Made by a program: the position numbers and the translations under genes. Source: a virus. Taken from it: a stretch of 20,491 nt of DNA. This document shows, piece by piece, positions 2 through 20,480 of the stretch. The first letter of the stretch is position 1; each line of letters starts with the position of its first letter. The stretch spans positions 1-20,491 of IMG/VR virus record IMGVR_UViG_3300010371_000123; one strand, written 5' to 3'. The notes beneath the pieces are model-generated. The model saw nothing but the letters and a program-made list of their open reading frames with translations, did no database searches and was not told where the DNA came from.

Positions 2-145
2 TCCTTCGGCAAGTGGACCACGGTCGGCGAGCTCCAGTCGCGTCCTCAGCGCAACCAGGAATCAGCCGACCGGTTCCGGGCCGAGCTCCGCGGTCCCTCC
101 ACGCCGGAGATGGCTGAATATGCCGGCCGTCTTGGCCTGAGGTGA
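2..145 (+). CDS. C-terminal fragment of an unidentified upstream gene
   Basis: An open reading frame enters from the left edge and runs 47 codons to a TGA, one base before the ATG of the HNH gene. The visible peptide is hydrophilic, rich in Arg, Glu and Gln, and ends in RLGLR. It has no motif I recognise. The tight spacing to the next gene and the shared strand suggest it belongs to the same operon. The start and most of the protein lie outside the window, so no function is assigned. It could be a chance open frame, but 47 open codons flush against the next gene make a real gene end more likely. Confidence 0.5.
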   Translation, partial: SFGKWTTVGELQSRPQRNQESADRFRAELRGPSTPEMAEYAGRLGLR

Positions 146-146
146 C

Positions 147-518
147 ATGCCCCATGCCGTCCGCTGCATCGATTGCGGGCATCCGTCGCCGGAGTCGCCG
201 TGCTCTGGCTGCAGGCGGCGGCGTAATCAGAAGCGAGCCAGCGAGAGCTACTACCAGACGCCCGAGTGGAAACGTAAGCGCGCCGCTGCGCGTCGTCGGC
301 TCGGAGATTCCTGCGCGATCTGCGGTAGCACCGAGCGACCTATCACCCACCATCGCAAAGGTCGCGCCGAAGGAGGCGAAGACGTGCAAGGGAACTTCAT
401 GATCCTCTGCGGCGCAGGTGCTATCGACCAGCCTTGGGATAGCTGCCACAGCCAGTACGAGGCCGATAAGCGCGCTGGCACGGACACTGAGCTGCGTCGG
501 TTAGTAGAGGCCCTGTGA
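147..518 (+). CDS. HNH endonuclease with an N-terminal zinc ribbon
   Basis: A 123-residue phage HNH nuclease. Residues 7-22 hold two Cys pairs (C7/C10 and C19/C22), a likely small zinc ribbon. A basic helix-rich stretch containing YQTPEWKRKR (36-45) follows, as is common in phage HNH proteins. The beta-beta-alpha-metal core has a structural Cys pair C56/C59, catalytic HH at 68-69, Asn at 83, and CH at 100-101. The gap between the later Cys residues (C88 and C100) is longer than the usual CxxCH. In HK97-type phages an HNH protein works with the terminase to cut DNA at cos during packaging. That role is plausible here, though the terminase lies about 2.6 kb downstream. A homing-type or free nuclease is the alternative. 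The stop overlaps the GTG start of the next gene by 4 bases. Confidence 0.85.
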   Translation: MPHAVRCIDCGHPSPESPCSGCRRRRNQKRASESYYQTPEWKRKRAAARRRLGDSCAICGSTERPITHHRKGRAEGGEDVQGNFMILCGAGAIDQPWDSCHSQYEADKRAGTDTELRRLVEAL

Positions 519-1483
519 ACGGTCGCAAGGCCAGAATGCTCCGCGCGGCAGGGGAACCAGAAGATCTCCCGCGGATCATCGGCCTCCTCTCCTGGTACGA
601 AGAGAGCGCAGTTTGGCTCGCCGCCACCGTCGCCTCCGCAGCCAAATGTTGCGACCACCTCGTCGCTGTCGACGGCGCCTACTTTCTATACCCGGAGGGT
701 CGCAACCGCTCGAGCAGCGAGCAAGCCGCGATCATCACCGACGTCGCGACCGCTAACGGAATGGGCGTCACGATCCACACCCCGGCCCAGAAGTGGGAAG
801 GCAACGAGGTTGAGAAGCGCAGCTTCATGTTCGCTCTCGCCGAGACCATCGCTGACCCCGATGACTGGTACTTGGTCCTCGATGCCGATGAGGTCATCCT
901 TGAGATTCCGAGCGACTTCAAGCAACGGCTGGCAGCAACGGAGCTCGATGCCGGCGAGGTGACCTTCTGGGAGCACCAAGACCCGCATCAGGATCTAAAA
1001 CTTGCGGTCGCGGCAAGGCAGTTCGAGTGGAGCGGCCACCACCGCTACCCGATTCGGACCCTCTTCCGCGCCATCCCTGGCCTCAAGGTGGAGACCAACC
1101 ACTACACCTACGTGACGCCTGATGGCCGGTTGCTCTGGGGGAACGAGTCCGCAACTCAACAGGTAGAGGCATTGGACTGCCAGGACCTCGTCATCGAGCA
1201 CCGCACCCACCTGCGCGACCTCGCCCGACGCGCCAGCGCTCGGAATTACTACAAGGCCCGCGATGCGGCAGGCATCGAGGCAGGCTGTTGCGCGAACTGC
1301 ACGGAGGATGCGACCAAGTTCATCACCGTCGACTGGGAGCTTGAGGCTCAGGGCCTAACCGCGCGAACCGTTCCCGTCTGCGAGGGCTGCTTCCCAGCCG
1401 CGAAGGCTGCCAGTGACGCGGCACTTCGCGAGCTTGGGTTCGATCCCGGCGGCCTCCAATACGAGGGTGCGACAGCAGCGTGA
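515..1483 (+). CDS. Glycosyltransferase, family 2-like, with C-terminal zinc ribbon
   Basis: A 322-residue protein resembling GT-A fold (family 2-like) glycosyltransferases, which transfer a sugar from a nucleotide-sugar donor. Visible features are an early hydrophobic strand (IIGLLSWYEE, 21-30), an Asp in VAVDGAY (50-56), an EKRSFMFALA segment (100-109), and the metal/nucleotide-binding DADE at 123-126 within a hydrophobic strand. The C-terminal part carries C258, C259, C262 and then C289 and C292, spaced like a zinc ribbon, which is unusual for an ordinary GT2 enzyme. The start is GTG at 515, overlapping the HNH stop by 4 bases; there is no strong separate ribosome binding site, consistent with coupled translation. 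It overlaps the sugar dehydrogenase gene that follows, so the two probably act in one pathway. The acceptor (virion protein, DNA or host glycan) cannot be read from sequence. Confidence 0.75.
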   Translation: MNGRKARMLRAAGEPEDLPRIIGLLSWYEESAVWLAATVASAAKCCDHLVAVDGAYFLYPEGRNRSSSEQAAIITDVATANGMGVTIHTPAQKWEGNEVEKRSFMFALAETIADPDDWYLVLDADEVILEIPSDFKQRLAATELDAGEVTFWEHQDPHQDLKLAVAARQFEWSGHHRYPIRTLFRAIPGLKVETNHYTYVTPDGRLLWGNESATQQVEALDCQDLVIEHRTHLRDLARRASARNYYKARDAAGIEAGCCANCTEDATKFITVDWELEAQGLTARTVPVCEGCFPAAKAASDAALRELGFDPGGLQYEGATAA

Positions 1484-2340
1484 AGGTCGCGATCATCGGC
1501 TACGGCAGGATGGGCCGCAACCACAAGCGCGTGCTGGAGCAGCTTGGGCATGAGGTCGTGACTCTAGATCGCGATCCAGCCGCTGGCGCTGACTTGGTCT
1601 TTGGCCAACTTGAAATGCGTATCCAGCGGATGCCTTTCGATGCCTTCTGCGTCTCCACCCCGATCGCTTCGCTCCGTGATGCCGCAGAGCGACTGGGCTC
1701 AAACGGCCTACCATTGCTTATCGAGAAGCCTGGCGCCGAAAGCCTCTACCAGCTGCGCGCTGCGCATGAGCTAGGCAACGTGACGATCGGCTACACCGAG
1801 CGGTTCAACCCCGCAGTCGAAGCGCTCAAGGAAAACCTGCATCGAGTAGGCGTGGTCCAGCACTTCAGCGCGCGGCGTCTCGGCTACGCCTACGATCGCG
1901 CAGGCGATCCGGCTCTCGACCTAGCAACGCACGATCTGGACGTGCTCGACTACCTGTTCGGTGATGAGGCACGCCCTCTGCTCCTCGACCACGTCGCCCG
2001 TAGCCGCCACCACGTGTCAGCACTACTCCACTACGACACGGAGCCAGTACCTGGATTCCCGTGCCAACCATGCTCGGTGAGCATCGAGGCCAGCCACCTT
2101 CACCCGACTAAGGTGCGGCAACTGGAGATCGTCGGTAGTGACGGCGTGCTCTGCTTGGACTACACCGCCCAGTCGCTCTACCTTGCTGGCGTTGAACCCA
2201 TCTACGATGGCATGCCCCACGTCGAGCCACTGGTCCGCGAGTGGGAAGCGTTCTTCCGAGGCGAAGGCAGCGACGGCATAGCGGCCATGCGGATCGCTGA
2301 GCAGATGGTGGAAGCCGAGCCTTCTAGGATTGCGGCATGA
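1480..2340 (+). CDS. Gfo/Idh/MocA-family NAD(P)-dependent sugar oxidoreductase
   Basis: A 286-residue dehydrogenase of the Gfo/Idh/MocA family. The N-terminus has a Rossmann nucleotide-binding motif GYGRMG (7-12), with an Asp-rich end of beta-2 (TLDRD, 28-32) that favours NAD(H). The family EKP motif is at 82-84, GYTERFNP at 104-111, and the HDLD segment with the expected catalytic His at 151-154. The GxxERFNP and HDLD arrangement resembles enzymes annotated as UDP-N-acetylglucosamine 3-dehydrogenases, so a nucleotide-sugar substrate is likely but not proven. It is somewhat shorter than typical family members (about 320-350). The start is GTG at 1480, overlapping the glycosyltransferase stop by 4 bases, and its own stop overlaps the next ATG. 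It probably supplies or modifies the sugar used by the neighbouring transferase. Confidence 0.82.
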   Translation: MKVAIIGYGRMGRNHKRVLEQLGHEVVTLDRDPAAGADLVFGQLEMRIQRMPFDAFCVSTPIASLRDAAERLGSNGLPLLIEKPGAESLYQLRAAHELGNVTIGYTERFNPAVEALKENLHRVGVVQHFSARRLGYAYDRAGDPALDLATHDLDVLDYLFGDEARPLLLDHVARSRHHVSALLHYDTEPVPGFPCQPCSVSIEASHLHPTKVRQLEIVGSDGVLCLDYTAQSLYLAGVEPIYDGMPHVEPLVREWEAFFRGEGSDGIAAMRIAEQMVEAEPSRIAA

Positions 2341-2564
2341 GCGATGACGCTTACGAGTGGGCCATCATTTTCGAGCCCGATGAAGGCACGCTCATGGGCG
2401 AGCCTGTCTGGGCAGTCAAGGCGGCCGAGGCAGCTGGCGTGATCTACCTCTGCCCAATCGAGGATGGCTCGTGCTCTAACGGCCATCACAAGGGCGGATG
2501 CTTCTGGCACTACTGCGAGGGCAAAACGCCAGACGACTACGACGCTGCCACTGACAACCCATGA
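2337..2564 (+). CDS. Small Cys/His-rich protein of unknown function
   Basis: A 75-residue acidic protein that I do not recognise. Its middle part is dense in potential metal ligands: C39, C46, H50, H51, C55, H58 and C60 within 22 residues. This could form a zinc site or a disulfide-stabilised fold. The N-terminal 30 residues look like a short beta/alpha segment (AIIFEP, then VWAVKAAEAAG). It starts in an ATGA overlap with the dehydrogenase stop and ends in an ATGA overlap with the next gene, so it is translated as part of the same cluster. The strict overlaps on both sides argue that it is a real gene. Confidence 0.6.
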   Translation: MSDDAYEWAIIFEPDEGTLMGEPVWAVKAAEAAGVIYLCPIEDGSCSNGHHKGGCFWHYCEGKTPDDYDAATDNP

Positions 2565-3007
2565 GGAACAAGCAGGTAGCGCCCAGCGATAGCGCCCAGG
2601 TCCTCGCCGACCTCGTACCTCGGATCAGCTACAAGCCTGGCTGGCACTTCAAGCTGAGCGAGATAGACAGAGGCCAAGGCTGCGAAGGGCTGACGCTCAT
2701 CATCAGCTTCATGTCTTCGGATTCTCTCGACCATTCCAAGCAGACCGAAGGCGTCCACCTCATGCCAGTCCTGCCCGCTGCCTACGACGAGGAAGCGTGG
2801 CTCTACTGGATCTTCGAACAGATCCAGATGGTGGAGAGCCACGAGTCGATGGAGTTCTTTTGCTGTGATGGCACCCAGCCGTTCTTCCCGGACCACGGTC
2901 CCGGTCGCAATCCCTACGCCCTGCATCGGATCAAGTACGAGCGGCAGATCCGCGAGCCGGCAGTTCCTTGGCTCGGTGGTCCTGCGCGCGACCAGCACTT
3001 CGCATAA
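2561..3007 (+). CDS. Conserved-looking phage protein of unknown function
   Basis: A 148-residue soluble protein. It contains the segment LVPRISYKPGWHFKL (18-32), a central strand-rich region, then an aromatic helix (WLYWIFEQIQ, 80-89), SHESMEFF (93-100) and a C-terminal PFFPDHGPGRNPYA (108-120). I recognise this order of motifs from short hypothetical proteins in actinobacteriophage genomes, but no function is established to my knowledge. The conserved His and Glu residues (H67, E92, H94, E95) could bind a metal; this is inference. It starts in an ATGA overlap with the previous gene and is the last gene before the packaging-site candidate region. Confidence 0.7.
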   Translation: MRNKQVAPSDSAQVLADLVPRISYKPGWHFKLSEIDRGQGCEGLTLIISFMSSDSLDHSKQTEGVHLMPVLPAAYDEEAWLYWIFEQIQMVESHESMEFFCCDGTQPFFPDHGPGRNPYALHRIKYERQIREPAVPWLGGPARDQHFA

Positions 3008-3166: not shown

Positions 3167-3547
3167 TTGCCTCGTTCCAAATCTCCCCCTCCGGCTGACT
3201 TCGACGCTGACTCGAAGGCCCTCTGGAAGAAGACGGTCAAACAGCTCGAAGAGCAGAGCACCTGGCAAGAATCAGACATGCCGGCGCTTGAGCGGTACGT
3301 CCGCGCTCTCGCTAAGGCCCGGCTCGCCTGGAGCGGCATCCCTCGCAACAAAGACGGCTCCCTGAACCTCACGGCTCGCGGCTCGCAGGGACAGCTCGTC
3401 CAGCACCCGAACGTCAAAACCGCCCGCGAGTCAGAACGGGATGCCCACGACTATGCCCGTGACCTCCTCCTCACCCCCAAAGCGCGGGAGCAACACCAGA
3501 TCGAAAAGCAGCGCGCGGAGAAGGGCGGCAAGTTCGGGCTCGACTAG
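3167..3547 (+). CDS. terS: Terminase small subunit, P27 family
   Basis: A 126-residue DNA-packaging protein. Small terminase subunits recognise the phage packaging site and recruit the large subunit. The sequence fits the P27 family: a Lys/Arg/Pro-rich N-terminus, a helical region LWKKTVKQLEEQSTWQESDM (19-38) followed by a helix ending in ALAKARLAW (47-55), then the family-like sequence around LTARGSQGQLVQHP (68-81) and a helix with DLLLTPKAR (99-107). The length is typical. The start is TTG at 3167, chosen for the strong Shine-Dalgarno just upstream. The 3' end overlaps the large-subunit frame by 107 bases. Confidence 0.88.
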   Translation: MPRSKSPPPADFDADSKALWKKTVKQLEEQSTWQESDMPALERYVRALAKARLAWSGIPRNKDGSLNLTARGSQGQLVQHPNVKTARESERDAHDYARDLLLTPKAREQHQIEKQRAEKGGKFGLD

Positions 3548-5105
3548 GCGACCGGCGAAGCGCCCCGCAGGCAGGATTCGCTGGAGCTACGAGTTCTTCG
3601 TCTGGTTTGCCGAGCTACTAACGCTCCCGGTGACTGAGGTTGAGTGGACCGGGGCGCCGAAACCGCTTCGCCTTGAGCCGTTCCAGCGCTTCATCCTGAA
3701 GATGGCGTTCAAGACCGGGCGCGCCGAGCTCCTGGTGTTGCTGCCTAAGGGAAACGGCAAGACGCTCCTCTTCGCGGCTCTCGCGGTATTCCATCTCTTG
3801 ACGGTCGACAACGCCGAGTGCTTCATCGGCGCCGCGGACGCGGAGCAGGCGAAGACCATGTTCCGGTTCGCGAGCCACTTTGTGGAGTCGGAGCCCGAGC
3901 TTGAAGCGAAGCTCGACCTTCGGAAGTCGACGCGGGAAATCCGGTCAAAGCGCGACCAGGGCTTCATCAAAGTCCTCGCCTCCGACGCGTCCAAAGCCGG
4001 AGGAAAACGCCACTCCTACAACCCCTCGCTCGCGCTGATCGACGAGCTTCACGCCCACGACAACGACAGCCTCTATACGGCGCTGCGATCGGCGACCTTC
4101 AAGCGCGGTGGCCTAGTGATCACGATCTCGACCGCAGGCCACGACGAGGAGAACTCTCCGCTCGGCCTTAAGAGGGCACAGGTCTTCGCCTATGAGCATT
4201 CGGGCGGGAAGATCCTGCGGCGGCGAAGGGTCAACTCTCGCGGCCAAGCCGTCTCCGACAAAGACGGCCGACTGACGATCGTTGAAGCACCCTCAGGCAA
4301 TACCTGCATGCTCGAATGGGCTTGCGAGCCCGACGATGACCTCGACGATATGGAAGTCGTCAAGCGGGCGAACCCGGGAAGCTTCGTAACGATCGCCGGG
4401 CTCGAAGACGGCCACGAGACCCTCGAGGAATCCGTCTTCAAACGGTATCGCTGCAACGTCTGGGCTCAGGCCGCAGACGCTGTGATCGATGAACGCGTCT
4501 TCGACGCCCTCGAGGACGGCTCAACGGTCCCGGCAGATGCCCCGCAGTACGTGGTCGTCGACTATGCCCGCAAACGTGACGGGTGCGCCGTAGTCCAAAT
4601 GTGGCGGGATCCCGAGCGGGAGGTCGTGGTTCCGAAGGCCCACGTTTGGGCGGTGCGGGAGAAGCGGGCCGGCCGGCCGCAGCCCGCTGCACACACACTG
4701 ATCGCCGAGGCGACCATCCGCCAGTCGCTGGTCCGAAAGCACATCCGCGCGATTCGGGACGAGGGCGCCGAAGTGCTCGGCGTGATCTACGACCCCCACC
4801 TTTTCGATCCCGAGGAGCTATCGGATGAAGGCTTTCTGATGATCGAGTTCCCGCAGTCCAACGAGCGCCTGGTGCCGGCCTCGAAAGCTCTGTTTGAGGC
4901 ATTCAACCAGGGGCAGATCCGACATGATGGCGACTCGGTCCTACGAAGCCATGTGGTGTCGGCTGGCGCCAAGGACGTATCAGGTGGGGAGGGGTGGCGC
5001 TTCTCGAAGGCCCGCTCCAAGAAGCTGATCGACGCCTGCATTTGCCTGGTGATGGGGATCGAAGATGCGCTGCGGCCAGTAAGCGCGGGGGGGTGGGAAT
5101 GGTGA
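3441..5105 (+). CDS. terL: Terminase large subunit (ATPase and nuclease)
   Basis: This is the packaging motor that pumps DNA into the prohead and cuts it. Residues count from ATG 3441. Walker A is LPKGNGKT (101-108), Walker B is LALIDE (197-202), and the coupling motif follows at ISTAGHD (229-235). The nuclease domain shows VVVDYARKRDG (371-381, Asp374), YDPHLFD (450-456) and LIDA (529-532), giving three candidate metal-binding Asp residues. Length and order match HK97-type large terminases. The start is uncertain: the conserved domain begins near residue 45, but no ATG, GTG or TTG exists between the end of terS and that point. The only initiators are ATG 3441, ATG 3453 and GTG 3459, all inside terS and without a clear ribosome binding site. 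The first 40 residues are Ser/Arg-rich and look unlike a folded domain. Confidence 0.92.
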   Translation: MPTTMPVTSSSPPKRGSNTRSKSSARRRAASSGSTRRPAKRPAGRIRWSYEFFVWFAELLTLPVTEVEWTGAPKPLRLEPFQRFILKMAFKTGRAELLVLLPKGNGKTLLFAALAVFHLLTVDNAECFIGAADAEQAKTMFRFASHFVESEPELEAKLDLRKSTREIRSKRDQGFIKVLASDASKAGGKRHSYNPSLALIDELHAHDNDSLYTALRSATFKRGGLVITISTAGHDEENSPLGLKRAQVFAYEHSGGKILRRRRVNSRGQAVSDKDGRLTIVEAPSGNTCMLEWACEPDDDLDDMEVVKRANPGSFVTIAGLEDGHETLEESVFKRYRCNVWAQAADAVIDERVFDALEDGSTVPADAPQYVVVDYARKRDGCAVVQMWRDPEREVVVPKAHVWAVREKRAGRPQPAAHTLIAEATIRQSLVRKHIRAIRDEGAEVLGVIYDPHLFDPEELSDEGFLMIEFPQSNERLVPASKALFEAFNQGQIRHDGDSVLRSHVVSAGAKDVSGGEGWRFSKARSKKLIDACICLVMGIEDALRPVSAGGWEW

Positions 5106-7317: not shown

Positions 7318-8832
7318 ATGAAGCTGTACCGAATTCGGCTGCGGCTGGCTGCCGAAGCCGTGCTCTTCTACTTCTCGCTGGCTCGGCTCCGGTTCGCCAT
7401 GAGCTATGTGCCGATCGAAGGAGCCGATCCGGTGACGGACATCGCTCCCGTGCAGGAGCAGTATCGCAATGCCGTCGCGGAGCTGCATGCCTGCGCTGAT
7501 CGCGTAGATGCCGCAGCCAAAGCGCTCGACGAGGCCGGTGAGGACGCCGATCTCAGCGAACTTGAGGCGACGCTGACCACGGCTGGAGATGATCTCGCAG
7601 TCGCAAGGGCGAAAGCCGATCAGTTCCAGGCTCGCGTCGAGCTGTTCGAGCGCACCCAAGAGGCGCGTTCGATCGCCCTTCCGGATCTCTCGGAGGACGC
7701 CGGAGGTGAGGAGGATCCCGGAGGCGAGGGCACCGAGCACGCCCGCCCGAAGGGTGGAAAGGCTGAACTCACCTACCGCAAGGGTGGCGAGTTCTCGTTG
7801 TTCCGTGACCTCTACAACCGCGACGTCCGCCACGACAATGCTGCGGCGGAGCGTCTCGGGCGGCATATGCAGGAGATGGAGGCGGAGGGTCGTTTCGATC
7901 TGAGCTCCACCGACGAAGCCGGCGGCTATCTGGTTGCCCCGCTTTACCTGCAGGACGAGTTCGTTGATCGGGCCACGGCTGGCCGGGTCATCGCCGACGC
8001 GATCGGTGTGAGGGATCTTCCGCCGAATACCGACAGCGTCAACATCCCGAAGATCAGCACCGGCACCGATGTGGCCAATCAGGCCGACAACGAAGCCGTC
8101 AAAGAGCAGGACGCGACCTTTGGGACGCTCGCCGCGGACGTGAAGACCAAGGCGGGTCTGCAGGACGTGTCGCAGCAGTTGATCGACCGCTCCGTTCCGG
8201 GTGTCGACGAAATCATCTACGCCGACCTGACCAAGCAGTATGCGGTCCGGCTCGACCAGGATGTCATCAATTCTGCGATGGCCAACAACAAAGGCCTGCT
8301 CCAGGTCTCGGAAATCAACGGCATCACCTACACCGATGCTTCTCCGACCCTGAGCGAGCTCTATCCCAAAATCGCGCAGGGAATCGCAAACGTCCATGAA
8401 GGTATCTTCATGCCGGCGGATGCGATCTTCATGCATCCTCGGCGCTGGGCGTTTTGCCTGGCGGCGCAGGACTCCCAGAACCGCCCCCTGATCACCCCCT
8501 ACGCGCCGGTGAACGCAGCCGGCGCCACGGATGGAGTGATCGCAACTGGGCCGGTCGGTGCCATTCAGGGCGTTCCGGTCTATGTTGACCCGAACATCCC
8601 GACCAATCTCGGTTCAGGCACCAACGAGGACCGCGTGGTCATCGTTCGGCGCGATGAGCTGTATGTCTACGAGGACCCGAACGGGCCATATCTCGAGACG
8701 TTCCGCGACGTCGGGTCCGGCAACATGACCGTCCGGTTCCGGCTCCACAACTACTGGGCGCAGCTCAACGCCCGGCGCCCGAAGGCCATCTCGGTCATCT
8801 CCGGCACCGGTCTGGCCACGCCTACGTTCTAG
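7318..8832 (+). CDS. Major capsid protein, HK97 fold, with N-terminal scaffold (delta) domain
   Basis: A 504-residue capsid subunit. Residues 1-27 are a hydrophobic/Arg-rich segment. Residues 40-118 are helical and probably coiled-coil, matching the delta scaffold domain of HK97-type capsids. Residues 122-150 are an acidic Gly/Glu linker, the likely region for cleavage by the upstream protease. The mature domain follows, with the N-arm and start of the fold at DEAGGYLVAPLYLQDEFVD (200-218), the E-loop around NTDSVNIPKISTGTD, the spine helix SELYPKIAQGIANVHEG, and the P/A-domain core FMHPRRWAF and IQGVPVYVDPNIP. AAGGAG at 7306-7311 supports ATG 7318; ATG 7399 has no such site. No separate scaffold gene is present, as expected when the delta domain serves that role. 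Confidence 0.94.
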   Translation: MKLYRIRLRLAAEAVLFYFSLARLRFAMSYVPIEGADPVTDIAPVQEQYRNAVAELHACADRVDAAAKALDEAGEDADLSELEATLTTAGDDLAVARAKADQFQARVELFERTQEARSIALPDLSEDAGGEEDPGGEGTEHARPKGGKAELTYRKGGEFSLFRDLYNRDVRHDNAAAERLGRHMQEMEAEGRFDLSSTDEAGGYLVAPLYLQDEFVDRATAGRVIADAIGVRDLPPNTDSVNIPKISTGTDVANQADNEAVKEQDATFGTLAADVKTKAGLQDVSQQLIDRSVPGVDEIIYADLTKQYAVRLDQDVINSAMANNKGLLQVSEINGITYTDASPTLSELYPKIAQGIANVHEGIFMPADAIFMHPRRWAFCLAAQDSQNRPLITPYAPVNAAGATDGVIATGPVGAIQGVPVYVDPNIPTNLGSGTNEDRVVIVRRDELYVYEDPNGPYLETFRDVGSGNMTVRFRLHNYWAQLNARRPKAISVISGTGLATPTF

Positions 8833-8854
8833 CCCGACGGCTGGAACTTCCCGA

Positions 8855-8888
8855 GCGTCCTCGGCCGGCACTCGCTGGCCGAGGACGC
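8855..8888 (+). terminator. Strong hairpin after the capsid gene
   Basis: A perfect 12-base inverted repeat, GCGTCCTCGGCC and GGCCGAGGACGC, is separated by ten bases that allow three more pairs (one G-T), leaving an ACTC loop. It starts 22 bases after the capsid stop. No T-run follows, so it may be a factor-independent attenuator of the GC-rich type, an RNA-stabilising 3' hairpin for the abundant capsid message, or both. The inverted repeat itself is certain; its role is inferred. Confidence 0.6.
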
Positions 8889-8908
8889 AACGGAGAGAAA
8901 GGACCGCG

Positions 8909-9109
8909 ATGTCTCTCACCGACGAGCAGCGAGCCGAACAGGTAAAGGCCCTGACCAGGGAGCTGCATTACTACGAAACCTACGACCAACCCGAGCGTGC
9001 TGCCCAGGTCCGCCAAGAACTCGACCGCTTGGGCGCCGAGGCCGCGCCACCGCAGAAACGCGCGGCGAAACGCGCCAAATCCAAAGCTGAGAAACGCACG
9101 GAGCTCTAA
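8909..9109 (+). CDS. Small coiled-coil protein with basic tail
   Basis: A 66-residue, highly charged protein with no recognised family. Residues 3-44 form a predicted helix rich in Glu, Gln, Arg and Leu (EQVKALTRELHYYETYDQPE), suited to a coiled coil. The last 18 residues are Ala/Lys/Arg-rich (basic), which could contact DNA or the acidic capsid interior. GAAAGGA at 8897-8903 precedes the ATG. The stop overlaps the start of the next gene as TAATG. Short genes of this kind between the major capsid and the first connector are common in actinobacteriophages and are usually left as hypothetical proteins. Confidence 0.65.
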   Translation: MSLTDEQRAEQVKALTRELHYYETYDQPERAAQVRQELDRLGAEAAPPQKRAAKRAKSKAEKRTEL

Positions 9110-9699
9110 TGCTTTGCTCGGTCGACGACGTCCGGGAGTTCCTCCAAAAGGAGGCTGAGCGCACCGAGCAGAATGCAATCATTTCCTCGCTCATCGCCGC
9201 CGCCGGTCCCGTGATCGGGAACTATTGTGAGCGTGAGTTCGAGCAGCCCAACGACGATGATGAAGCCCTAGCTCGGACCTTCGAGTATCGAGGCGGGGGA
9301 TACCTCTCTCTCGCTCCTTTCGACCTGCGTGCCGTCGAGGGCGTCCGAATCGACGTCGATGAGGAGAGCCCGACTGTACTCACTACTGAAGAGTGGCGCC
9401 TCCCAGCGCCGACGCAGCACGGGACGATCACCTACCTTCGTCTCGCCCCCTACCTGGTTCACTCCCGATCACGCTGGCAGGAGCGGCTGGTGGAGGTCAC
9501 CGGTCATTGGGGGTTTGAATCGGTTCCCCCCGAGGTGAAGCAGGCGGCGATCGTCACCGTCGCGATCTGGCTGCGTCGCGATGTGTCGGCCTTCTCCCAG
9601 ACCTTCAACCTCGACGAGGCCCATGTCGAGCGCCCGGAGGCTCTACCGAGCGCGGTGACGCGGATGCTCTACCCGTTCAAGCGTCAGAGCTACGTATGA
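9109..9699 (+). CDS. Head-tail connector / adaptor protein (gp6-like)
   Basis: A 196-residue protein at the expected place for the first head-tail connector, which forms a ring under the portal. The N-terminus (LCSVDDVREFLQ, 2-13, then QNAIISSLIAAAGPVIGNYCEREF, in two parts around 21-44) matches the helical start of HK97 gp6-like adaptors. A beta-rich middle (FEYRGGGYLSLAPFDLRAVEGV) follows, and then late helices beginning PPEVKQAAIVTVAIWLRRDV (140-159). At 196 residues it is longer than the roughly 110-residue HK97 gp6, closer to the larger adaptors of actinobacteriophages. The start overlaps the previous stop (TAATG), and the stop overlaps the next ATG (ATGA). Confidence 0.78.
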   Translation: MLCSVDDVREFLQKEAERTEQNAIISSLIAAAGPVIGNYCEREFEQPNDDDEALARTFEYRGGGYLSLAPFDLRAVEGVRIDVDEESPTVLTTEEWRLPAPTQHGTITYLRLAPYLVHSRSRWQERLVEVTGHWGFESVPPEVKQAAIVTVAIWLRRDVSAFSQTFNLDEAHVERPEALPSAVTRMLYPFKRQSYV

Positions 9700-10172
9700 G
9701 CGACAAGATTCACGTCCGAGTCGACGCGGCCCGGACCAGCGACGAGTTTAAACGTGCTCGGGCGACGATCCGAGCCAAGGCGGCGCTGGGAGTCAAGGAG
9801 GCAAGCCAACGCGCGATCCTACCGCCAGTAAAGCGCGCCGCGCCGGCTGTCGTCTCGCCCTACCTGACCACCAAATCCAGGGGGACGACCGGCTATCTGA
9901 CGACTCTGGGGCCGAAGATGAAGGATCGCATTGCCGGCCTCCTGAACTTCGGGGGCTTGGTGAGCACAAAGATCGTTCCGCGGCGTAAACGCGCTCTGCA
10001 TATCCGCGGGACGAACGTCTTCGTCTCGCAGGTCGGGAATGGTCAGAGCGCGCGCGGGCGTCGCTACAAAGGCAAGAAATTCATCGAGCGCGGCGTTGCC
10101 GCTGGCTACCCAGAGTTCGAGCACCGCCTGACTGACTCGATTATGGCTGCCTTTGGGGATCTGGCCCGATGA
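9696..10172 (+). CDS. Head-tail joining protein, HK97 gp10-like
   Basis: A 158-residue basic protein, probably a neck or tail-completion component that sits between head connector and tail terminator. The region with the helix ASQRAILPPVKRAAP (37-51) followed by a Gly/Thr-rich strand and KIVPRRKRALHIRG resembles the HK97 gp10/minor-capsid connector family. The C-terminal part has the FIERGVAAGYPEFEHRLTDS helix typical of that family. Many Lys and Arg residues give it a strong positive charge. It starts in an ATGA overlap with the adaptor and ends in an ATGA overlap with the tail terminator. The family assignment rests on motif style and position. Confidence 0.7.
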   Translation: MSDKIHVRVDAARTSDEFKRARATIRAKAALGVKEASQRAILPPVKRAAPAVVSPYLTTKSRGTTGYLTTLGPKMKDRIAGLLNFGGLVSTKIVPRRKRALHIRGTNVFVSQVGNGQSARGRRYKGKKFIERGVAAGYPEFEHRLTDSIMAAFGDLAR

Positions 10173-10585
10173 GCGGAATCCTGTCGCCGCTCGCCGACGC
10201 CTTGGTCGAGAAGGCTGAAGAGGCTGGATGCGCCGGTTATCGGTGGGCACCGCGCGAACTCGACAGCTCAAAAGCAGCGGTGATCGAGCTGCCTTCTGTT
10301 GAACGTACGGCGCTCGACGCTCCTGAGGACCATCTTGGCCAGGAGGATTGGCGGCCAACCTTCGACACTGTTTTCTACTTCGATCTCGATGTCGCAAAGG
10401 CATCTCAGGACGAAGCGGTCGAGGCTGTCGAGAAGTTCGTACTCGCGATCGATGCCGACCCTAGTCTCGGCGGCCTTTGCCAGGAAGCCAAAGCGGTCGA
10501 GGTGCTGCCACCTGAATTCGTCGAGGACGACGCGCGGCCGCAGATTCGCTGGCCGGTCCGCGTCGAGATTCTCACGTTCGTCTAA
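10169..10585 (+). CDS. Tail terminator protein
   Basis: A 138-residue acidic protein. Its order (after the gp10-like connector, before the tail tube) and its alpha/beta character match tail terminators such as lambda gpU, which cap the finished tail tube and allow joining to the head. It has an N-terminal helix (LSPLADALVEKAEEAG, 5-20), a middle strand in DTVFYFDLDV followed by a helix (SQDEAVEAVEKFVLAI), and a final strand QIRWPVRVEILTFV that closes the sheet. The identification is mostly by context and shape; sequence motifs in this family are weak. An ATGA overlap starts it. Confidence 0.68.
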   Translation: MSGILSPLADALVEKAEEAGCAGYRWAPRELDSSKAAVIELPSVERTALDAPEDHLGQEDWRPTFDTVFYFDLDVAKASQDEAVEAVEKFVLAIDADPSLGGLCQEAKAVEVLPPEFVEDDARPQIRWPVRVEILTFV

Positions 10586-12337: not shown

Positions 12338-12534
12338 GCCCCGACGAGGAACTGGAGTTCTACATCCTTCGTCGGGAGTTCGGCATCGGAATGGTCGAGG
12401 CCGAACATGAGATACCCGCTCAAGAGCTCGACGTGCTGATCCGCCAGCACGTCCGGGTCCGCAAGGGCGAAAACGGCGAGGCGGGGGCTGCGGAAGACGA
12501 GCCTCTGTCCGCTGCGCCAAAGGAGTTCACCTAA
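12310..12534 (+). CDS. Tail assembly chaperone extension (gpT-like), reached by -1 frameshift
   Basis: A 74-codon open frame begins after a TGA at 12307-12309 and ends at TAA 12532-12534, which overlaps the tape measure ATG. It lies in the -1 register relative to the short chaperone. Its first part contains SPDEELEFYILRREFGIGM (10-28), followed by a helix with AQELDVLIRQHVRVR, like the T domain of tail chaperones; the end is acidic and disordered. To be made as a fusion, ribosomes would have to shift between about 12307 and 12337. I do not see a canonical X-XXY-YYZ heptamer there. C-CCT at 12328-12331 allows a proline tRNA to re-pair and is only a weak candidate. Independent initiation at ATG 12391 is the alternative. 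Confidence 0.72.
   Translation, partial: PLPEEAPYLSPDEELEFYILRREFGIGMVEAEHEIPAQELDVLIRQHVRVRKGENGEAGAAEDEPLSAAPKEFT
12519..12525 (+). promoter_or_regulatory. Ribosome binding site of the tape measure gene
   Basis: AAAGGAG lies eight bases before ATG 12534, inside the end of the chaperone extension frame. It fixes the tape measure start and supports the reading that the TAATG junction is a gene boundary. Confidence 0.7.
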
Positions 12535-15500
12535 TGCCAGGTGGCCGAATTCGCATTTATTACGAAGCGGTCGTCCGCGACCTCGAGGCGGGCTCGAGGA
12601 GGGCGGAGCGATCGATCGACGGTGTAGGTGATGCCGCCGACCGGACCAATGCAAAGTTGGACGGGACGTCGGTCGCGATCGAGCGAACCCGGCAGAGCAC
12701 CGACCACTACACGAAGAGCAACCGCGAGGCGCAGCGGAGCACCTTGGATCTGAGTAAGGAGATCCAAGGGATCAACGCCCGCTTCACGGGGATGCGGAAT
12801 GTGGTCAGCCTGATCAAATGGCCGGGTCTGATTGCTGGCGCTGGCTACGCCGCGCAGGGACTCGGCGAGGTCTCGGCCGGGGCTATCGGTTTGACCTCAG
12901 CTCTTGCCCCCCTTTCGGGAGCTTTGGTGGCCTATCCCGCGTTGCTTGGGTCCTTTGCGCAGGCAATGGGCGTCGGTGCGCTCGCCCTGAGCGGTGTCAA
13001 GGGCGTTCTCGGCGAAATGAACAGCGCGCAGATTGCTTCGGGGGAAACGGCGAAACAGAGTGCCAAAGCTCAGGAAGCGGCCGCTGAATCGGTCCGAAGT
13101 GCGGAACGCCAGCTCTCTCAGGCCCAGGTTGGGTCCAAGCGAGCTCAGCATGAACTCACCCTGGCACGCCAGGAAGCTGTTCGGGACCTTGAGGATCTGA
13201 AAAACGCGGCCATCGATGCCGGCTTTGGAGAGAAACGGGCTGCCGAAAACCTTGCGAATGCCCGGCGCGAATTGGATCGAGCTCGGGCAGAACCTGGTAG
13301 CCATTCGGGTGCCGAACTGCGGAGCCTCCAACTCGGGGTAGAAGAAGCCCGACAGGGCCTCAAAGAGGCGAAACTCGAAAAGAAGCGGGCGGACCAGGAA
13401 GCCGCGAGAGGCAGTCGCCAAGGAGTCGAGAAGAACCCCAAAGTCCGCGAAGCCAAGCGGCAGGTAAACGAAGCCAACCTGCAAATCGCCGAATCCGCCC
13501 GTGCTGTCGCGAACGCTGAGAAGGCACAGAGCGAAGCGATGGAAGAAGGCGGCAGCGCTGCCAGCAAACTCGGCTCGAAACTCGCCGCGCTCCCGGCCGC
13601 AGCGCAGACGTTCGCGAAATTCATCTTCGGTCTGAAACCCAAAGTCCAGGAGCTGCAGAGCACCGCGGCGGAGGGTCTGTTCCCGGGTGTCGAAGGCGGG
13701 ATCAAATCGGCTCTCGCTCTCTTCCCCCGCGTCGACAAGGCAGTGGGGAAGACCGCCAAGACCCTCGGCGGCTTGGCGCAGCGCGCCGGGGAGTTGGTCG
13801 GCAGCAAGGGGTTTGGGCGCGACTTCACCACGATCGCGGACGGGAACGTTCAGATCATCGACCGACTAGGCAACGGCGGCCTGAAGCTGGCAGATGCCCT
13901 GCGCCAGGTACTCGTGGTCGGCCAGCCGCTCTTGAAGTGGATGGCGAAGAGCGGCGAACAGCTCGCCACTTGGGTCGACAACACCGCAAAGTCGGGCCGC
14001 GAAACTGGCAAGCTCGCCGGCTTCTTCGAAAAGACGCGCTGGACGATGGAAACGCTCTGGTCGATGGCCAAGAACGTCGCCTCTGGCTTTCTCGAAATCG
14101 GCAAAGCCGCCTACCCATTGGGCAAATCCATTTTGGTTGCGCTGAATGGGCAGACCAAGGAATTCTCTGATTGGACCCACTCCTTACAGGGGCGGAACGC
14201 GCTGCGCGAATACTTCGCCGAAGCCAAACCCGGGATCTTCGAGCTGGGCCGCCTGGTCAAGGACGTCGGCAAAGACTTCCTCTCGCTCTCCAAAGGCCAG
14301 GGCTTCTTCGAACTGACCCATGCCCTGCGGGTCGAACTGCTGCCGGTCATCACCGAAGTACTCAAATCGACCACGGCTGCTTTCGGACCAGCGCTGGTCA
14401 AAGCGCTCGTTCAGATCGGCAAGTTGCTCGGAAACCTCGCTGGCTCGAGCGGCCCACTCACTCTCTTCGTCGAATCGGTCACCTCGATGGTCAAGCTGGT
14501 CAACGGGGCGTTCGACAACGTCCCGGGGCTGAAGACGTTCGCGGTGACCCTCGCAGGTATCGCCACGGTGAGCAAAGCCATGAGGTTCACCGGAATGGTG
14601 ACCGGCCTGTCCTCAGCGCTTGGGATCGCAAAGAAGATTGCGGTGACCCTAGGGCTCATCGATGCGGCCGAGGCCGCCGCCGGCGGAGGGCTCCCGATTC
14701 CCGGCTTGGGTCGCAGGGCTTCGACCACCGTGGCTGGCGATGTCGGTGCATACGGTGAGAAGCAGGCGCTGCGGGACGTGGGATTACTTGGGAGCGGTGC
14801 CGCTGCCCCGAGCCTGGGCGCCCGGTTCGCCTCCGCGCTACCGGGCTTTCTTGGAACCGGCGCTGGACTGGCCGCCACGGGTGGACTGGCCGCCGCAGGA
14901 GCCTTCCTCATCAATCCCGGCGGCGGGTTGGTCAATGCCTCGAAAACGGCGAGCCAGCGCGAGGAAACCGACGCAATCCAGAAATTCGAAGGTCTCGATT
15001 TCACGAAGTCCGAAGCTCAGCTCAAGCGTTTGCGAAGCAGTTTCAAGACGACGATGGAGAAGCTCCGCACCGACGCGGCTCTCGGAATGGGTGCGATCAG
15101 CTCCGCCCTTGGCACCGGTCTCGGCATCGCCAACGAAACCTGGCGCAAGGGGACCAAGCAATGGCGCGATCACACCGCGCAGGCAATGCAGGCGGCAGTC
15201 TCGGAGATCCGCCAGGGGATGAAGGCCGGCACGATCGACGCCGAGTCCGGGCACAAGGAAATCAATCGCCTGCTCGGGGATATCCATCTCGTCAGAGGTA
15301 GTGACCCATTCGGCCTCTCGAGGGCGACGGTCAGCACCTTCAAAGACGTAGGGGAAGTCACCGCGAGCGGGGTCAGCAACTGGGTGAAGAAGCTGGAAGT
15401 GATGCCGGGCAAGGCGCGCGAACAGACGCGGGCGGCCACCAACGCCATGCTTGATGCGTGGGCGCAGGGGCATCCGAAACTCGAAGCGCAGGTCAAGAAC

Positions 15501-18014
15501 CTCACCGACTACGAGACCCGCAAATTCGGAGCAGCCAACCAGTCGATCCAGCGGAGTACCGCTAATGCGATGCTGAATATGGCGCAGTCGGCGGAAAGCG
15601 GTGCCAGCGCCTTCTCGAAGTCCCTCGGGAGCATCGGCAGCCAGCTCGCGGCGGCTCTCCGCGCGTTGGGGGTGACGAAGATCCCGTCCTTTCAGATCCA
15701 GCAGGCGGCGAAAACTGGGACTGGGGTCGGCTCGGAAATGCACCATCGCGAATTCGCCGACGGGGGCTTTCTGCGAGGCACCGGTCGCCGCGACACGGAG
15801 GTGGTCATGGCCGCCCCGGGCGAGGCGTTTCTGACCGGCCACCAGCAGCCTGAAGTCCAAGCGGCGCTTTCGTTCGCCAAGACCTTCGGCGTGGTGCAGA
15901 ACGGCTCGCTCCAAGAACTCTTCGCCAATGTCACCACGCCCCACTACATGGCGAGCGGGGGCATTGTGCGGCCGGTCATCACTGGAGGCGGTCCAGCCGA
16001 GCGCGAAGGCGAGCAGCACGGCGTCAACATGGTCTGGAAAGCCGCCCAGAAGTACTTCGAACGCCACGACGGCATCGGCCGCGTGATCGCAAACGGCAAC
16101 AGGATGAACGCCCTCCACCAGCCGTACTTGTGGGGCGGCGGGCACGGAGCCACTGCCTCGCGGAACGGCCCGTGGGACTGCTCCGGTGGGACTAGCGAGC
16201 TCGCGGTTGGAGCGGGCCTAGATGGCGCCGATTTCAACTTCGCGCCGATGGTCTCAGGCGGTTTCGAGAACTGGGGCTCGCCGGGCAAAGGCGACTTCAC
16301 GGTGCTTGCAAACACCGAGCACGTCTACTCGGTGCTGAAAACCCCGAAGGGCTGGAAAGCGATCGGGACCTCTGAAAAGAACCCCGGTGGTGGGTTCGGA
16401 TGGATCTCGGGCTACACGTTCCGCCCCGGCTTCACGATCCGCCACGCGGACTTTTCTACGACCTCAGGCAGCCGCACCGGTAAGCGCGACCGCAAGGGAC
16501 AGAAGCAGGCGAAGGGATTTGCCCGCGGGGGCTTCACCTCAGGCGACATCAAGCACAGCGGCGTGCTCTCACCCGAAGAATGGATGATCGCGATGCTGCT
16601 CGGCGGCTTCCCGGCGAGGGAAGGCGTGCTGGCGCAGGGCGCGGGGACGATCAAGTCGGAGTCGGGGTTCAACGCCTCGAGCCAGGTATCGGGGAACGAA
16701 CACGAAGGCGGCTGGGCACTCGCAGACGCCTTCGGGCCGACGTCGATGAAGCTCGACCCGATCCTCTCCTCGCACGCCGCTTTCCTCGAGTGGGAGAAGG
16801 ACGGCGGCTTCTGGCAGGCATGGGGGCAATGGGAGGCCGAACAGAGCGGCCTCAGCGGTGGTGGCGCAGGCACGTACGGCCCCGAATACATGCCGCTCGC
16901 CGCGGCTGTGATCAAGAAGTGGCTCGGCGGTGGCGCCCGCGGAGCCAGGGGCGGCGCGCCCAAGCTGGCGACGCCGACCTTTCCTGCCGGCCACACCTCG
17001 GCCGGCGGCGGCACCTACGGCTCGCCGGCGGGGCCGCCAGGGAAACCCGGCTCGGCGCGCCAGCACGAAGTCAATCTTCCCGGCCTCGCCCCCGGGATCC
17101 TTAGCGCGACCGCCAAGAGCCTGCCGAAGAACATCCAGGCGATGCTGAAGCAGCCCGGGATCACCTTCGCCCAAAAGCTCAGCATCGGCGAACTGGCGAC
17201 CACGGTCGCCGGGGCGACCTTCCAGCCGACCCTGAACGCTGCGGGCGAAATCGTCGACAGCGGCCTCGACGACAAAATCGCCGCCGAATTCCTCAAAGAA
17301 CTGCTGCTCCAAGACAAGAAACGGGTCCAGAAGAAGCTGAAGGAAATCGCCAAGGCGCTGCGCAGCCCACAGACGCAGGCTCGCAAGAACGCCCTGCAGA
17401 AAGCGCAGAGCGCGCTGCTCTCGCGGCTGGGCCAGGACATCTCAAGCCTTAGCGGGCTCAACGCGACCATCGAAGGCGAAGGGGCCGAAGGGGGCGGAGA
17501 AGAACACCACGCCACGCTCAGCGACCTCGCTGCCGGCTTCCGCAACTTCAACCTCAGCGATGTCATCGCCGAAGCGATGGGCCTCGACCCCTCGGATATG
17601 CCGACGGCACTCGACTACGCCAACCGCGACCTGGCATTGGCCGAACTCACCCCTGACGAAGCCGACGACAAAGCGGCGCGCAAGAAAATCCTTGAACTCA
17701 CCGAAGCGGAATTCGCTGCGGCGCGGGCGACCCCAGATCCCCGCGACGACATAACCGCTGCCCAGAACCTCAAAGCGGCGCGGGAAGCCTACGAAAACAT
17801 CGGTGAAATCAAACAGAACCTGGAAGCGCAGCTCAACCTCCAGAAAGAAGCCACTGAGAAGGCCGAACGAACCACGCGCCTCCTAGAAGAACAGAGCGGA
17901 CCTGATGGCACCGTCGCGAAAGCGATAGCTGCGGTGGTCAGCGGACAGATCGGCGGCAAAGTCGGCCTCGGCTTCGCAACCCCTTCTGTCGCCGGCTCGC
18001 TCGCCTCCTACTGA
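12534..18014 (+). CDS. Tape measure protein with NlpC/P60 and lysozyme-like domains
   Basis: A 1826-residue protein that sets tail length. Residues 90-160 form a hydrophobic Ala/Gly-rich region. Residues about 164-343 are a long charged coiled coil. A second hydrophobic stretch lies near 756-798. Residues about 1185-1305 resemble an NlpC/P60 cysteine peptidase: PYLWGGGH, then WDCSGG with Cys1216, then NTEHVYSV with His1263 and an ending FTIRH. Residues about 1345-1465 look like a lysozyme or transglycosylase fold: TIKSESGFNA with candidate Glu1376, then GGWALAD and later WQAWGQWE. A Gly/Pro-rich linker (about 1440-1516) and a C-terminal coiled coil (about 1700-1790) follow. Such domains open peptidoglycan during DNA entry. 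Length, position after the chaperones and coiled coils make the tape measure call firm; the third catalytic residue of the peptidase is not clear. Confidence 0.92.
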   Translation: MPGGRIRIYYEAVVRDLEAGSRRAERSIDGVGDAADRTNAKLDGTSVAIERTRQSTDHYTKSNREAQRSTLDLSKEIQGINARFTGMRNVVSLIKWPGLIAGAGYAAQGLGEVSAGAIGLTSALAPLSGALVAYPALLGSFAQAMGVGALALSGVKGVLGEMNSAQIASGETAKQSAKAQEAAAESVRSAERQLSQAQVGSKRAQHELTLARQEAVRDLEDLKNAAIDAGFGEKRAAENLANARRELDRARAEPGSHSGAELRSLQLGVEEARQGLKEAKLEKKRADQEAARGSRQGVEKNPKVREAKRQVNEANLQIAESARAVANAEKAQSEAMEEGGSAASKLGSKLAALPAAAQTFAKFIFGLKPKVQELQSTAAEGLFPGVEGGIKSALALFPRVDKAVGKTAKTLGGLAQRAGELVGSKGFGRDFTTIADGNVQIIDRLGNGGLKLADALRQVLVVGQPLLKWMAKSGEQLATWVDNTAKSGRETGKLAGFFEKTRWTMETLWSMAKNVASGFLEIGKAAYPLGKSILVALNGQTKEFSDWTHSLQGRNALREYFAEAKPGIFELGRLVKDVGKDFLSLSKGQGFFELTHALRVELLPVITEVLKSTTAAFGPALVKALVQIGKLLGNLAGSSGPLTLFVESVTSMVKLVNGAFDNVPGLKTFAVTLAGIATVSKAMRFTGMVTGLSSALGIAKKIAVTLGLIDAAEAAAGGGLPIPGLGRRASTTVAGDVGAYGEKQALRDVGLLGSGAAAPSLGARFASALPGFLGTGAGLAATGGLAAAGAFLINPGGGLVNASKTASQREETDAIQKFEGLDFTKSEAQLKRLRSSFKTTMEKLRTDAALGMGAISSALGTGLGIANETWRKGTKQWRDHTAQAMQAAVSEIRQGMKAGTIDAESGHKEINRLLGDIHLVRGSDPFGLSRATVSTFKDVGEVTASGVSNWVKKLEVMPGKAREQTRAATNAMLDAWAQGHPKLEAQVKNLTDYETRKFGAANQSIQRSTANAMLNMAQSAESGASAFSKSLGSIGSQLAAALRALGVTKIPSFQIQQAAKTGTGVGSEMHHREFADGGFLRGTGRRDTEVVMAAPGEAFLTGHQQPEVQAALSFAKTFGVVQNGSLQELFANVTTPHYMASGGIVRPVITGGGPAEREGEQHGVNMVWKAAQKYFERHDGIGRVIANGNRMNALHQPYLWGGGHGATASRNGPWDCSGGTSELAVGAGLDGADFNFAPMVSGGFENWGSPGKGDFTVLANTEHVYSVLKTPKGWKAIGTSEKNPGGGFGWISGYTFRPGFTIRHADFSTTSGSRTGKRDRKGQKQAKGFARGGFTSGDIKHSGVLSPEEWMIAMLLGGFPAREGVLAQGAGTIKSESGFNASSQVSGNEHEGGWALADAFGPTSMKLDPILSSHAAFLEWEKDGGFWQAWGQWEAEQSGLSGGGAGTYGPEYMPLAAAVIKKWLGGGARGARGGAPKLATPTFPAGHTSAGGGTYGSPAGPPGKPGSARQHEVNLPGLAPGILSATAKSLPKNIQAMLKQPGITFAQKLSIGELATTVAGATFQPTLNAAGEIVDSGLDDKIAAEFLKELLLQDKKRVQKKLKEIAKALRSPQTQARKNALQKAQSALLSRLGQDISSLSGLNATIEGEGAEGGGEEHHATLSDLAAGFRNFNLSDVIAEAMGLDPSDMPTALDYANRDLALAELTPDEADDKAARKKILELTEAEFAAARATPDPRDDITAAQNLKAAREAYENIGEIKQNLEAQLNLQKEATEKAERTTRLLEEQSGPDGTVAKAIAAVVSGQIGGKVGLGFATPSVAGSLASY

Positions 18015-20099: not shown

Positions 20100-20480
20100 T
20101 CAGTGCAGGTTGATGAAAACTTCTGGCGATGAACCACGCCTGAAGACCTCATGGGCACAGCTTTCGAACTGTGGCGGAGGTGGTTCTTCAAACTCTTCAG
20201 CTTCTTCCACCTCTTCCGCATATGAAGGGTTCTCCTCTCTGCAACCCGGAATTCGCCGGTCGATTCGGTAGCTGAACGACCAGTAGTAAGCGTTGTACCG
20301 TCGCCTCAGAAAGACGTATCCCGAACCATCGAAGAACACGGTGCGGCCGTGGTCGCTTCGCTTGTGGATGCGGTAGCAGTGTGCGAGATACTCGTCCCTG
20401 CTGCTCTGCCGATAGTCAGAGCATTGGAATCGCCAGCCGCCGCCGTCCAGAAACACATTCTCCTGAATAGCCTTGTTCAT
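20100..20480 (-). CDS. Unrecognised minus-strand gene, possibly open at its 5' end
   Basis: A 126-residue protein read from ATG at 20480 down to TGA at 20100. It is convergent with the tail operon and only 21 bases from the end of the distal tail gene. It has FQCSDYRQSSRDEYLAHCYR (18-37), with Cys20, His34, Cys35 and His39 possibly binding a metal, then aromatic strands (TVFFDGSGYVFLRRRY and YYWSFSYRI), and an acidic segment 88-99 followed by four prolines. I do not recognise a family. Base composition is visibly less GC-rich than the structural genes, suggesting separate origin. No ribosome binding site is visible in the 11 bases before the ATG, and the frame stays open to the window edge, so the true start may lie outside. 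Confidence 0.5.
   Translation of the reverse strand: MNKAIQENVFLDGGGWRFQCSDYRQSSRDEYLAHCYRIHKRSDHGRTVFFDGSGYVFLRRRYNAYYWSFSYRIDRRIPGCREENPSYAEEVEEAEEFEEPPPPQFESCAHEVFRRGSSPEVFINLH

Follow-up and report, generated by a model that had tools for sequence, protein, structure and literature searches.

Two adjoining genes of a viral contig, encoding a glycosyltransferase (GT) and a dehydrogenase of the Gfo/Idh/MocA family (Gfo), form a real pair that is kept together by more than chance, as seen from the identity of the GT among relatives, from dN/dS, and from relatives that were found by their terminase and carry both genes. We read the pair as what can be seen of a glycosylation cassette that is encoded by the phage and would convert UDP-GlcNAc into a 2,3-diamino-sugar and place it on a virion protein, a reading that we hold with about as much confidence as doubt. 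If the phage does have its own donor-sugar pathway, the sugar on its coat would be chosen by the phage, would reach beyond the sugars of the host, and could be exchanged between phages. The reading comes with named genes, with a predicted sugar, a 2,3-diacetamido hexose, and with a predicted mass shift of the virion.

Operon layout

The window, that is, the whole stretch of DNA analyzed here, is an entire IMG/VR contig of 20,491 bases that is classed as linear and is probably a fragment; it starts only 146 bases upstream of the HNH gene. The features that bear on the gene pair are as follows.

2–145, plus strand: 3′ end of an ORF that is truncated at the contig edge and translates as SFGKWTTVGELQSRP...AGRLGLR*; nothing in the fetched loci matches it convincingly
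147–518, plus strand: HNH endonuclease-like gene (phrog_589, 1.3e-8); 4-base overlap with the GT
515–1483, plus strand: predicted GT-A glycosyltransferase (GT), phrog_7009, with a C-terminal CxxC/CxxC ribbon; 322 aa, GTG start
881–892, plus strand: DADE, the DxD nucleotide-sugar/metal motif of the GT (D123 and D125); aspartates invariant in 44 homologues
1286–1390, plus strand: CxxC...CxxC putative zinc ribbon at the GT C terminus; conserved in the window, L004, L005, L006, L096, L098, and L019
1480–2340, plus strand: Gfo/Idh/MocA dehydrogenase (Gfo), closest to UDP-GlcNAc 3-dehydrogenase of the GnnA type; 286 aa, GTG start
1723–1731, plus strand: EKP motif of the dehydrogenase (residues 82–84), with the catalytic lysine of Gfo/Idh enzymes; invariant in 18 homologues
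2337–2564, plus strand: 75-aa ORF with a 4-base overlap with each neighbor; no family match and no homologue in the fetched loci
2561–3007, plus strand: 148-aa ORF, phrog_1540 (1.2e-17); 48% identical to a homologue in L041
3167–3547, plus strand: terminase small subunit (Pfam Terminase_4, 4.7e-14)
3441–5105, plus strand: terminase large subunit (phrog_9, 4.9e-74)

The initial annotation held that the two sugar genes overlap each other by 4 bases and also overlap both neighbors, and the junctions, read directly, bear this out: GTGA at 515–518 (HNH/GT), GTGA at 1480–1483 (GT/Gfo), and ATGA at 2337–2340 (Gfo/next ORF), followed by a further ATGA at 2561–2564. Chained 4-base overlaps of this kind are the pattern of translational coupling and, judged from the sequence, of a single operon. 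The earlier placement of the pair between the HNH gene and the terminase is right, with the refinement that the order downstream of the dehydrogenase is two small ORFs, terminase small subunit, terminase large subunit, portal, protease, and capsid. The HNH gene is syntenic in L004–L006, where homologues 68–72% identical occupy the equivalent place. The 47-residue fragment at 2–145 was considered as a possible LbH acetyltransferase or aminotransferase and rejected; it is unrelated, although L004 and L006 carry an acetyltransferase there.

Several other features of the contig were observed in passing. The phrog_1540 homologue in L041 adjoins the capsid gene, whereas in the window it lies in the dehydrogenase–terminase interval (2561–3007). 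The two terminase genes overlap by ∼107 bases in different frames (3441–3547), and in five of five relatives, too, the large subunit begins within the small-subunit gene with an MPT(S/T)T-like sequence. The tape-measure protein (1,826 aa, 12534–18014) contains a stretch that resembles, by eye, an NlpC/P60 peptidase (LWGGGHGATASRNGPWDCSGGTSELAVG). At the contig end, the minus strand holds an ORF of 126 aa (20100–20480), which runs opposite to the other genes and has no PHROG match.

Linkage and exchange of the two genes

Linkage was tested from four baits: terminase, dehydrogenase, GT, and acetyltransferase. The terminase is not a sugar gene, and its sole near relatives (n = 5, 75–88% identical over the large subunit) all carry both GT and Gfo. 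Starting from the dehydrogenase, a GT lies nearby in 12 of the 13 closest viral loci, with more distant Gfo loci lacking it, and starting from the acetyltransferase, 12 of the 16 closest loci have a GT; relatedness is frequent among the contigs, so that the counts are not counts of independent events. The initial annotation had named homologues that never co-occur as an outcome fatal to its proposal, and this outcome is refuted. From the GT bait, a dehydrogenase is present in only 15 of 81 loci (6/39 among loci flanked on each side by 4 kb or more). Thus, the dehydrogenase is an addition to a core formed by the GT. The gene orders seen are GT-Gfo-TerL, TerL-Gfo-GT-portal, TerL-Gfo-X-GT-portal, and LbH-X-GT-Gfo, a variation that makes simple hitchhiking less likely. 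Clustering of neighbors from stop to stop was dropped because it was too noisy in GC-rich loci. Among cultured phages, 49 records of Omegavirus mycobacteriophages have GT homologues but no Gfo of the window clade, and none of 50,697 annotated phage records holds both the GT and the Gfo of that clade.

The window GT is 78–81% identical to those of L004–L006. By rough NG86 estimates, dN/dS is about 0.17 for the GT and 0.24–0.36 for the Gfo, which evolves faster. The near relatives fall into {window, L004, L005, L006} and {L096, L098} by GT identity and into {window, L004, L096} and {L005, L006, L098} by dehydrogenase identity. For instance, L004 and L096 share 64% identity in Gfo and 46% in GT, and L004 and L005 share 40% in Gfo and 78% in GT. 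The dehydrogenase has been swapped separately from the GT next to it. The two identity matrices correlate all the same (Mantel r 0.67, 13 loci), as they should if the genes stay linked and are exchanged only from time to time.

The glycosyltransferase

All of the motifs that had been named for the two proteins (DADE, the zinc-ribbon cysteines, GYGRMG, EKP, and HDLD) are present at 515–2340. The GT matches phrog_7009, a GT-A, GT2-like family, at 6e-55 in the PHROG profile search and has the DxD motif; in Pfam, the only match is Glyco_tranf_2_4, below the cut-off. Besides the two aspartates of DADE, residues W27, E30, D53, G54, K101, R102, H196, H229, R234, and R238 are invariant across the 44 homologues. 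The C-terminal ribbon is absent from the other homologues shown and is an add-on to the GT. The GT lacks the kind of hydrophobic stretch expected of a membrane helix. A search of PDB sequences with the GT gave no significant match, so structure was used instead, with three rows from annotated phage records left out of the prediction input. The AlphaFold2 model (pLDDT 88.9) adopts the GT-A fold; its first Foldseek match is the peptide S-glycosyltransferase SunS (E 1e-7, TM 0.43–0.46), a likeness of the model at the fold level only, followed by cellulose and hyaluronan synthases and polypeptide GalNAc-transferases. A fold search had been suggested as a check, with a missing nucleotide-sugar pocket as the refuting outcome. 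That outcome did not appear in the model, which has UDP-sugar polymerases among its best matches.

The dehydrogenase

Pfam places the dehydrogenase weakly in Gfo/Idh/MocA, with the C-terminal domain below the cut-off (E 4e-4). The protein has the EKP and DxxxH residues and the C-terminal alpha/beta domain of that family, as well as the Rossmann-fold signature GYGRMG. The GxGxxG glycines, E82, K83, P84, and H151 are invariant in 18 homologues, and D147 is invariant in a six-member alignment. In NCBIfam, the first match is NF040723 (UDP-GlcNAc 3-dehydrogenase), with 95 bits over residues 1–260 and 32 bits for the next family; the scores of the relatives L096 and L098 are 103 and 100 bits. The lead over the next family is 63–68 bits for the window, L041, and L096 and 54–59 bits for L053 and L098. 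Since these scores are far below the curated equivalog cut-off of 450 bits, we call the dehydrogenase GnnA-like rather than a certified member. Searched against PDB sequences, a profile built from 18 viral Gfo homologues had 7bvj as its best match (1.8e-44), and 7bvj, GnnA of Acidithiobacillus ferrooxidans, is also the first Foldseek match of the model (pLDDT 87.3). In Foldseek, GnnA is only narrowly ahead of other Gfo/Idh folds, so the fold by itself would not decide. Taken together, two sequence libraries and the predicted fold put the dehydrogenase closest to UDP-GlcNAc 3-dehydrogenase.

Partner enzymes in relatives and the proposed pathway

The initial annotation expected that a complete pathway would need an aminotransferase or other enzyme, not seen beside the pair. 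By tblastn, neither a DegT aminotransferase nor an LbH acetyltransferase was matched in the window, which thus has two of the four cassette genes and, of the 2,3-diamino-sugar set (dehydrogenase, C3 aminotransferase, acyltransferase), the dehydrogenase alone. Both enzymes are present in relatives. L096 and L098, whose terminase is 76–79% identical to that of the window, carry in succession a DegT aminotransferase, a hexapeptide acyltransferase (LbH), a GT with the ribbon, and a dehydrogenase. In the L019 contig, LbH, GT, and Gfo stand ahead of the terminase, and DegT lies 26 kb away, directly after a putative major tail (tail-tube) gene that is labeled by position and synteny and has no PHROG match. 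These three contigs hold the full set. DegT exceeds the Pfam cut-off in three of 19 contigs. L004, L006, and L041 carry LbH, GT, and Gfo. With these partners in relatives, the co-occurrence, and the predicted GT-A fold, the idea of a two-gene sugar modification system gains support.

The DegT protein has a likely PLP lysine (FSFYPSK). Its best structures are 7b0d and then 2oga, QdtB, and WbpE, ahead of perosamine synthase and ArnB. We take 2oga, listed in the structure table only as "Transaminase," to be DesV, and we take DesV, QdtB, and WbpE to be C3 aminotransferases and perosamine synthase and ArnB to act on the C4 side. The structure nearest to the phage LbH is LpxA, which acylates position 3 of UDP-GlcNAc, and the LbH segment HVHLGHD resembles the catalytic histidine region of LpxA. 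Thus, three separate matches, of Gfo to GnnA, of DegT to C3 aminotransferases, and of LbH to LpxA, converge on C3 of UDP-GlcNAc.

On this basis the cassette might work as follows. The dehydrogenase, with NAD, would oxidize the 3-OH of host UDP-GlcNAc to a 3-keto sugar; DegT, encoded in relatives and absent from the window, would aminate C3; and the hexapeptide acyltransferase, likewise found in relatives and not in the window, would acylate the C3 amino group to give a UDP-2,3-diamino-sugar. Finally, the soluble GT-A transferase would move the sugar onto a virion protein, most likely of the capsid or tail tube, late in assembly. The two genes missing from the window may lie beyond the upstream contig end, or the host may supply the enzymes. 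We infer reaction, product, and acceptor alike, and also that the phage of the window completes the pathway. A broader proposal, which we put forward tentatively and with more doubt than belief, is that this phage family makes a non-host UDP-2,3-diamino-sugar with three enzymes of its own and coats its virions with it; with the dehydrogenase swapped independently of the GT, virion sugar chemistry would then be modular and rapidly exchanged.

Other cassette forms were also seen. Six loci (L161–L164 and L168–L169) have LbH beside a phrog_7009-type GT without any dehydrogenase, so the acetyltransferase may act elsewhere, which counts against the pathway proposed here. L102 encodes a 590-aa fusion (8723–10495) of a second GT-like domain ("LNPREIPDC...SDD") with the phrog_7009 GT, and in L041, L053, and L075 the same domain is unfused and adjoins the GT. 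In L100, an ATP-grasp protein (8621–9808, carbamoyl-phosphate-synthase-like), perhaps another sugar-tailoring enzyme, is encoded between dehydrogenase and GT. In the Omegavirus phage Minerva (L007, 2768–8726), the interval from capsid to connector genes encodes several glycosyltransferases in succession, together with a methyltransferase, a kinase, and a short "UDP-glucose dehydrogenase."

Alternative readings and the acceptor

The GT could instead put an ordinary host sugar on virion proteins, with the dehydrogenase serving another end, such as chemistry on neutral sugars or inositol or a reductive step that completes a host keto-sugar. At 66 of 81 GT loci, neither Gfo nor LbH is nearby, so the GT family works without the dehydrogenase, and in most GT-bearing phages it presumably uses ordinary host sugar nucleotides. 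Gfo/Idh enzymes are also functionally broad, and inositol dehydrogenases are among the next-best matches here. We nonetheless consider this reading unlikely, if by no means far-fetched: for five Gfo proteins, UDP-GlcNAc 3-dehydrogenase is 54–68 bits ahead of the second-ranked NCBIfam family, and three contigs have the very aminotransferase and acetyltransferase that a 3-keto product requires.

A virion protein is the most likely target of the proposed cassette. The GT gene (515–1483) lies in the structural region near the terminase, as it does in relatives, and its Omegavirus homologues sit between capsid and connector genes. The first fold match of the GT, a peptide glycosyltransferase, and its lack of a membrane segment point the same way. 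Capsid and tail-tube proteins glycosylated by phage GTs have been published (PMC12363180, PMC11256854), in mycobacteriophages with the phages' own GTs (PMC12363180). In L096 and L098 the GT is of another subtype and the portal/capsid module has been replaced, but the putative tail-tube protein is kept at 58–61% identity; these two are also sisters by terminase, so the comparison does not separate capsid from tail tube as the acceptor.

If the cassette altered a host surface glycan instead, it might block superinfection or change serotype. Phage GTs with such a role are known. Diamino-sugars also occur in bacterial envelopes, as with GnnA/GnnB in lipid A (PMC5644692). However, the genes lie inside a packaging/head operon, the GT is without a membrane segment, and no flippase-type partner was noticed in the neighborhoods read, all of which makes a surface target rather improbable. 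As for the host, GT homologues occur in Fodinicola, Streptomyces, and a Nanopelagicales MAG, and the terminase found two weak matches (32–39% identity) in 396 genomes of Fodinicola's phylum; these sequence matches suggest a host in the Actinomycetota.

We give little credence to the view that the window pair is a reduced cassette, kept for the GT alone, in which the dehydrogenase stands without partner enzymes from this phage. In favor of it, L006 is without an aminotransferase over 47,957 bases, the window is without both partners, and the Gfo evolves faster than the GT; against this, the catalytic residues of the Gfo are intact, its dN/dS is 0.24–0.36, and the window is cut upstream, at the place where L004 and L006 have the acetyltransferase. 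Some phages decorate their DNA with tailored sugars, and C5-methyltransferase matches occur in two contigs, but action of the cassette on phage DNA appears unlikely, and a GT acting on a hydroxylated base with the other enzymes tailoring the sugar very improbable, given that in 12 contigs, some of them fragments and some 48–55 kb long, no base-hydroxylating or hydroxymethylating enzyme was found (no match to Tet/JBP, PF12851, or to the thymidylate-synthase fold, PF00303) and that the window and its terminase-defined relatives have no C5-methyltransferase.

Comparison with known systems

It is useful to set the proposed glycosylation cassette beside pathways of similar composition. In the WbpB/WbpE/WbpD series (WlbA/C/B), a dehydrogenase, a DegT aminotransferase, and a hexapeptide acetyltransferase act in sequence, and the substrate of WbpB is UDP-GlcNAcA. 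The phage enzymes are of the same three kinds, with WbpE among the best DegT matches; unlike WbpB, the phage dehydrogenase is nearer to the enzyme for UDP-GlcNAc. GnnA and GnnB of Acidithiobacillus and Mesorhizobium oxidize the 3-OH of UDP-GlcNAc and then transaminate it to UDP-GlcNAc3N (PMC5644692). GnnA is the best match of the phage dehydrogenase in both sequence and structure, and the phage acetyltransferase is nearest to LpxA. In contrast to GnnA/GnnB/LpxA, which serve bacterial lipid A, the phage acetyltransferase has 134–164 aa, compared with about 260 for LpxA, and the phage chain would end in a GT. Both gnnA and wbpE have been listed among the auxiliary metabolic genes of viruses from the sediment of a proglacial lake (PMC12783922). 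Those viral contigs have enzyme names in common with the phage cassette; the main text of that study does not contain the word "glycosyltransferase," so no GT cassette is described there.

Virion glycosylation itself is known in a few mycobacteriophages, among them Che8, Corndog, and Myrna (Freeman et al. 2023, summarized in PMC12363180), for which the sources consulted mention GTs only. Like these phages, the window family would use GTs of its own for virion proteins, and its GT homologues are found among Omegavirus head–tail genes. Unlike them, as far as these sources report, a dehydrogenase and, in relatives, also an aminotransferase and an acetyltransferase travel with the GT. Overall, the parts are ordinary and their combination is uncommon: a phage GT linked to a dedicated sugar-nucleotide pathway.
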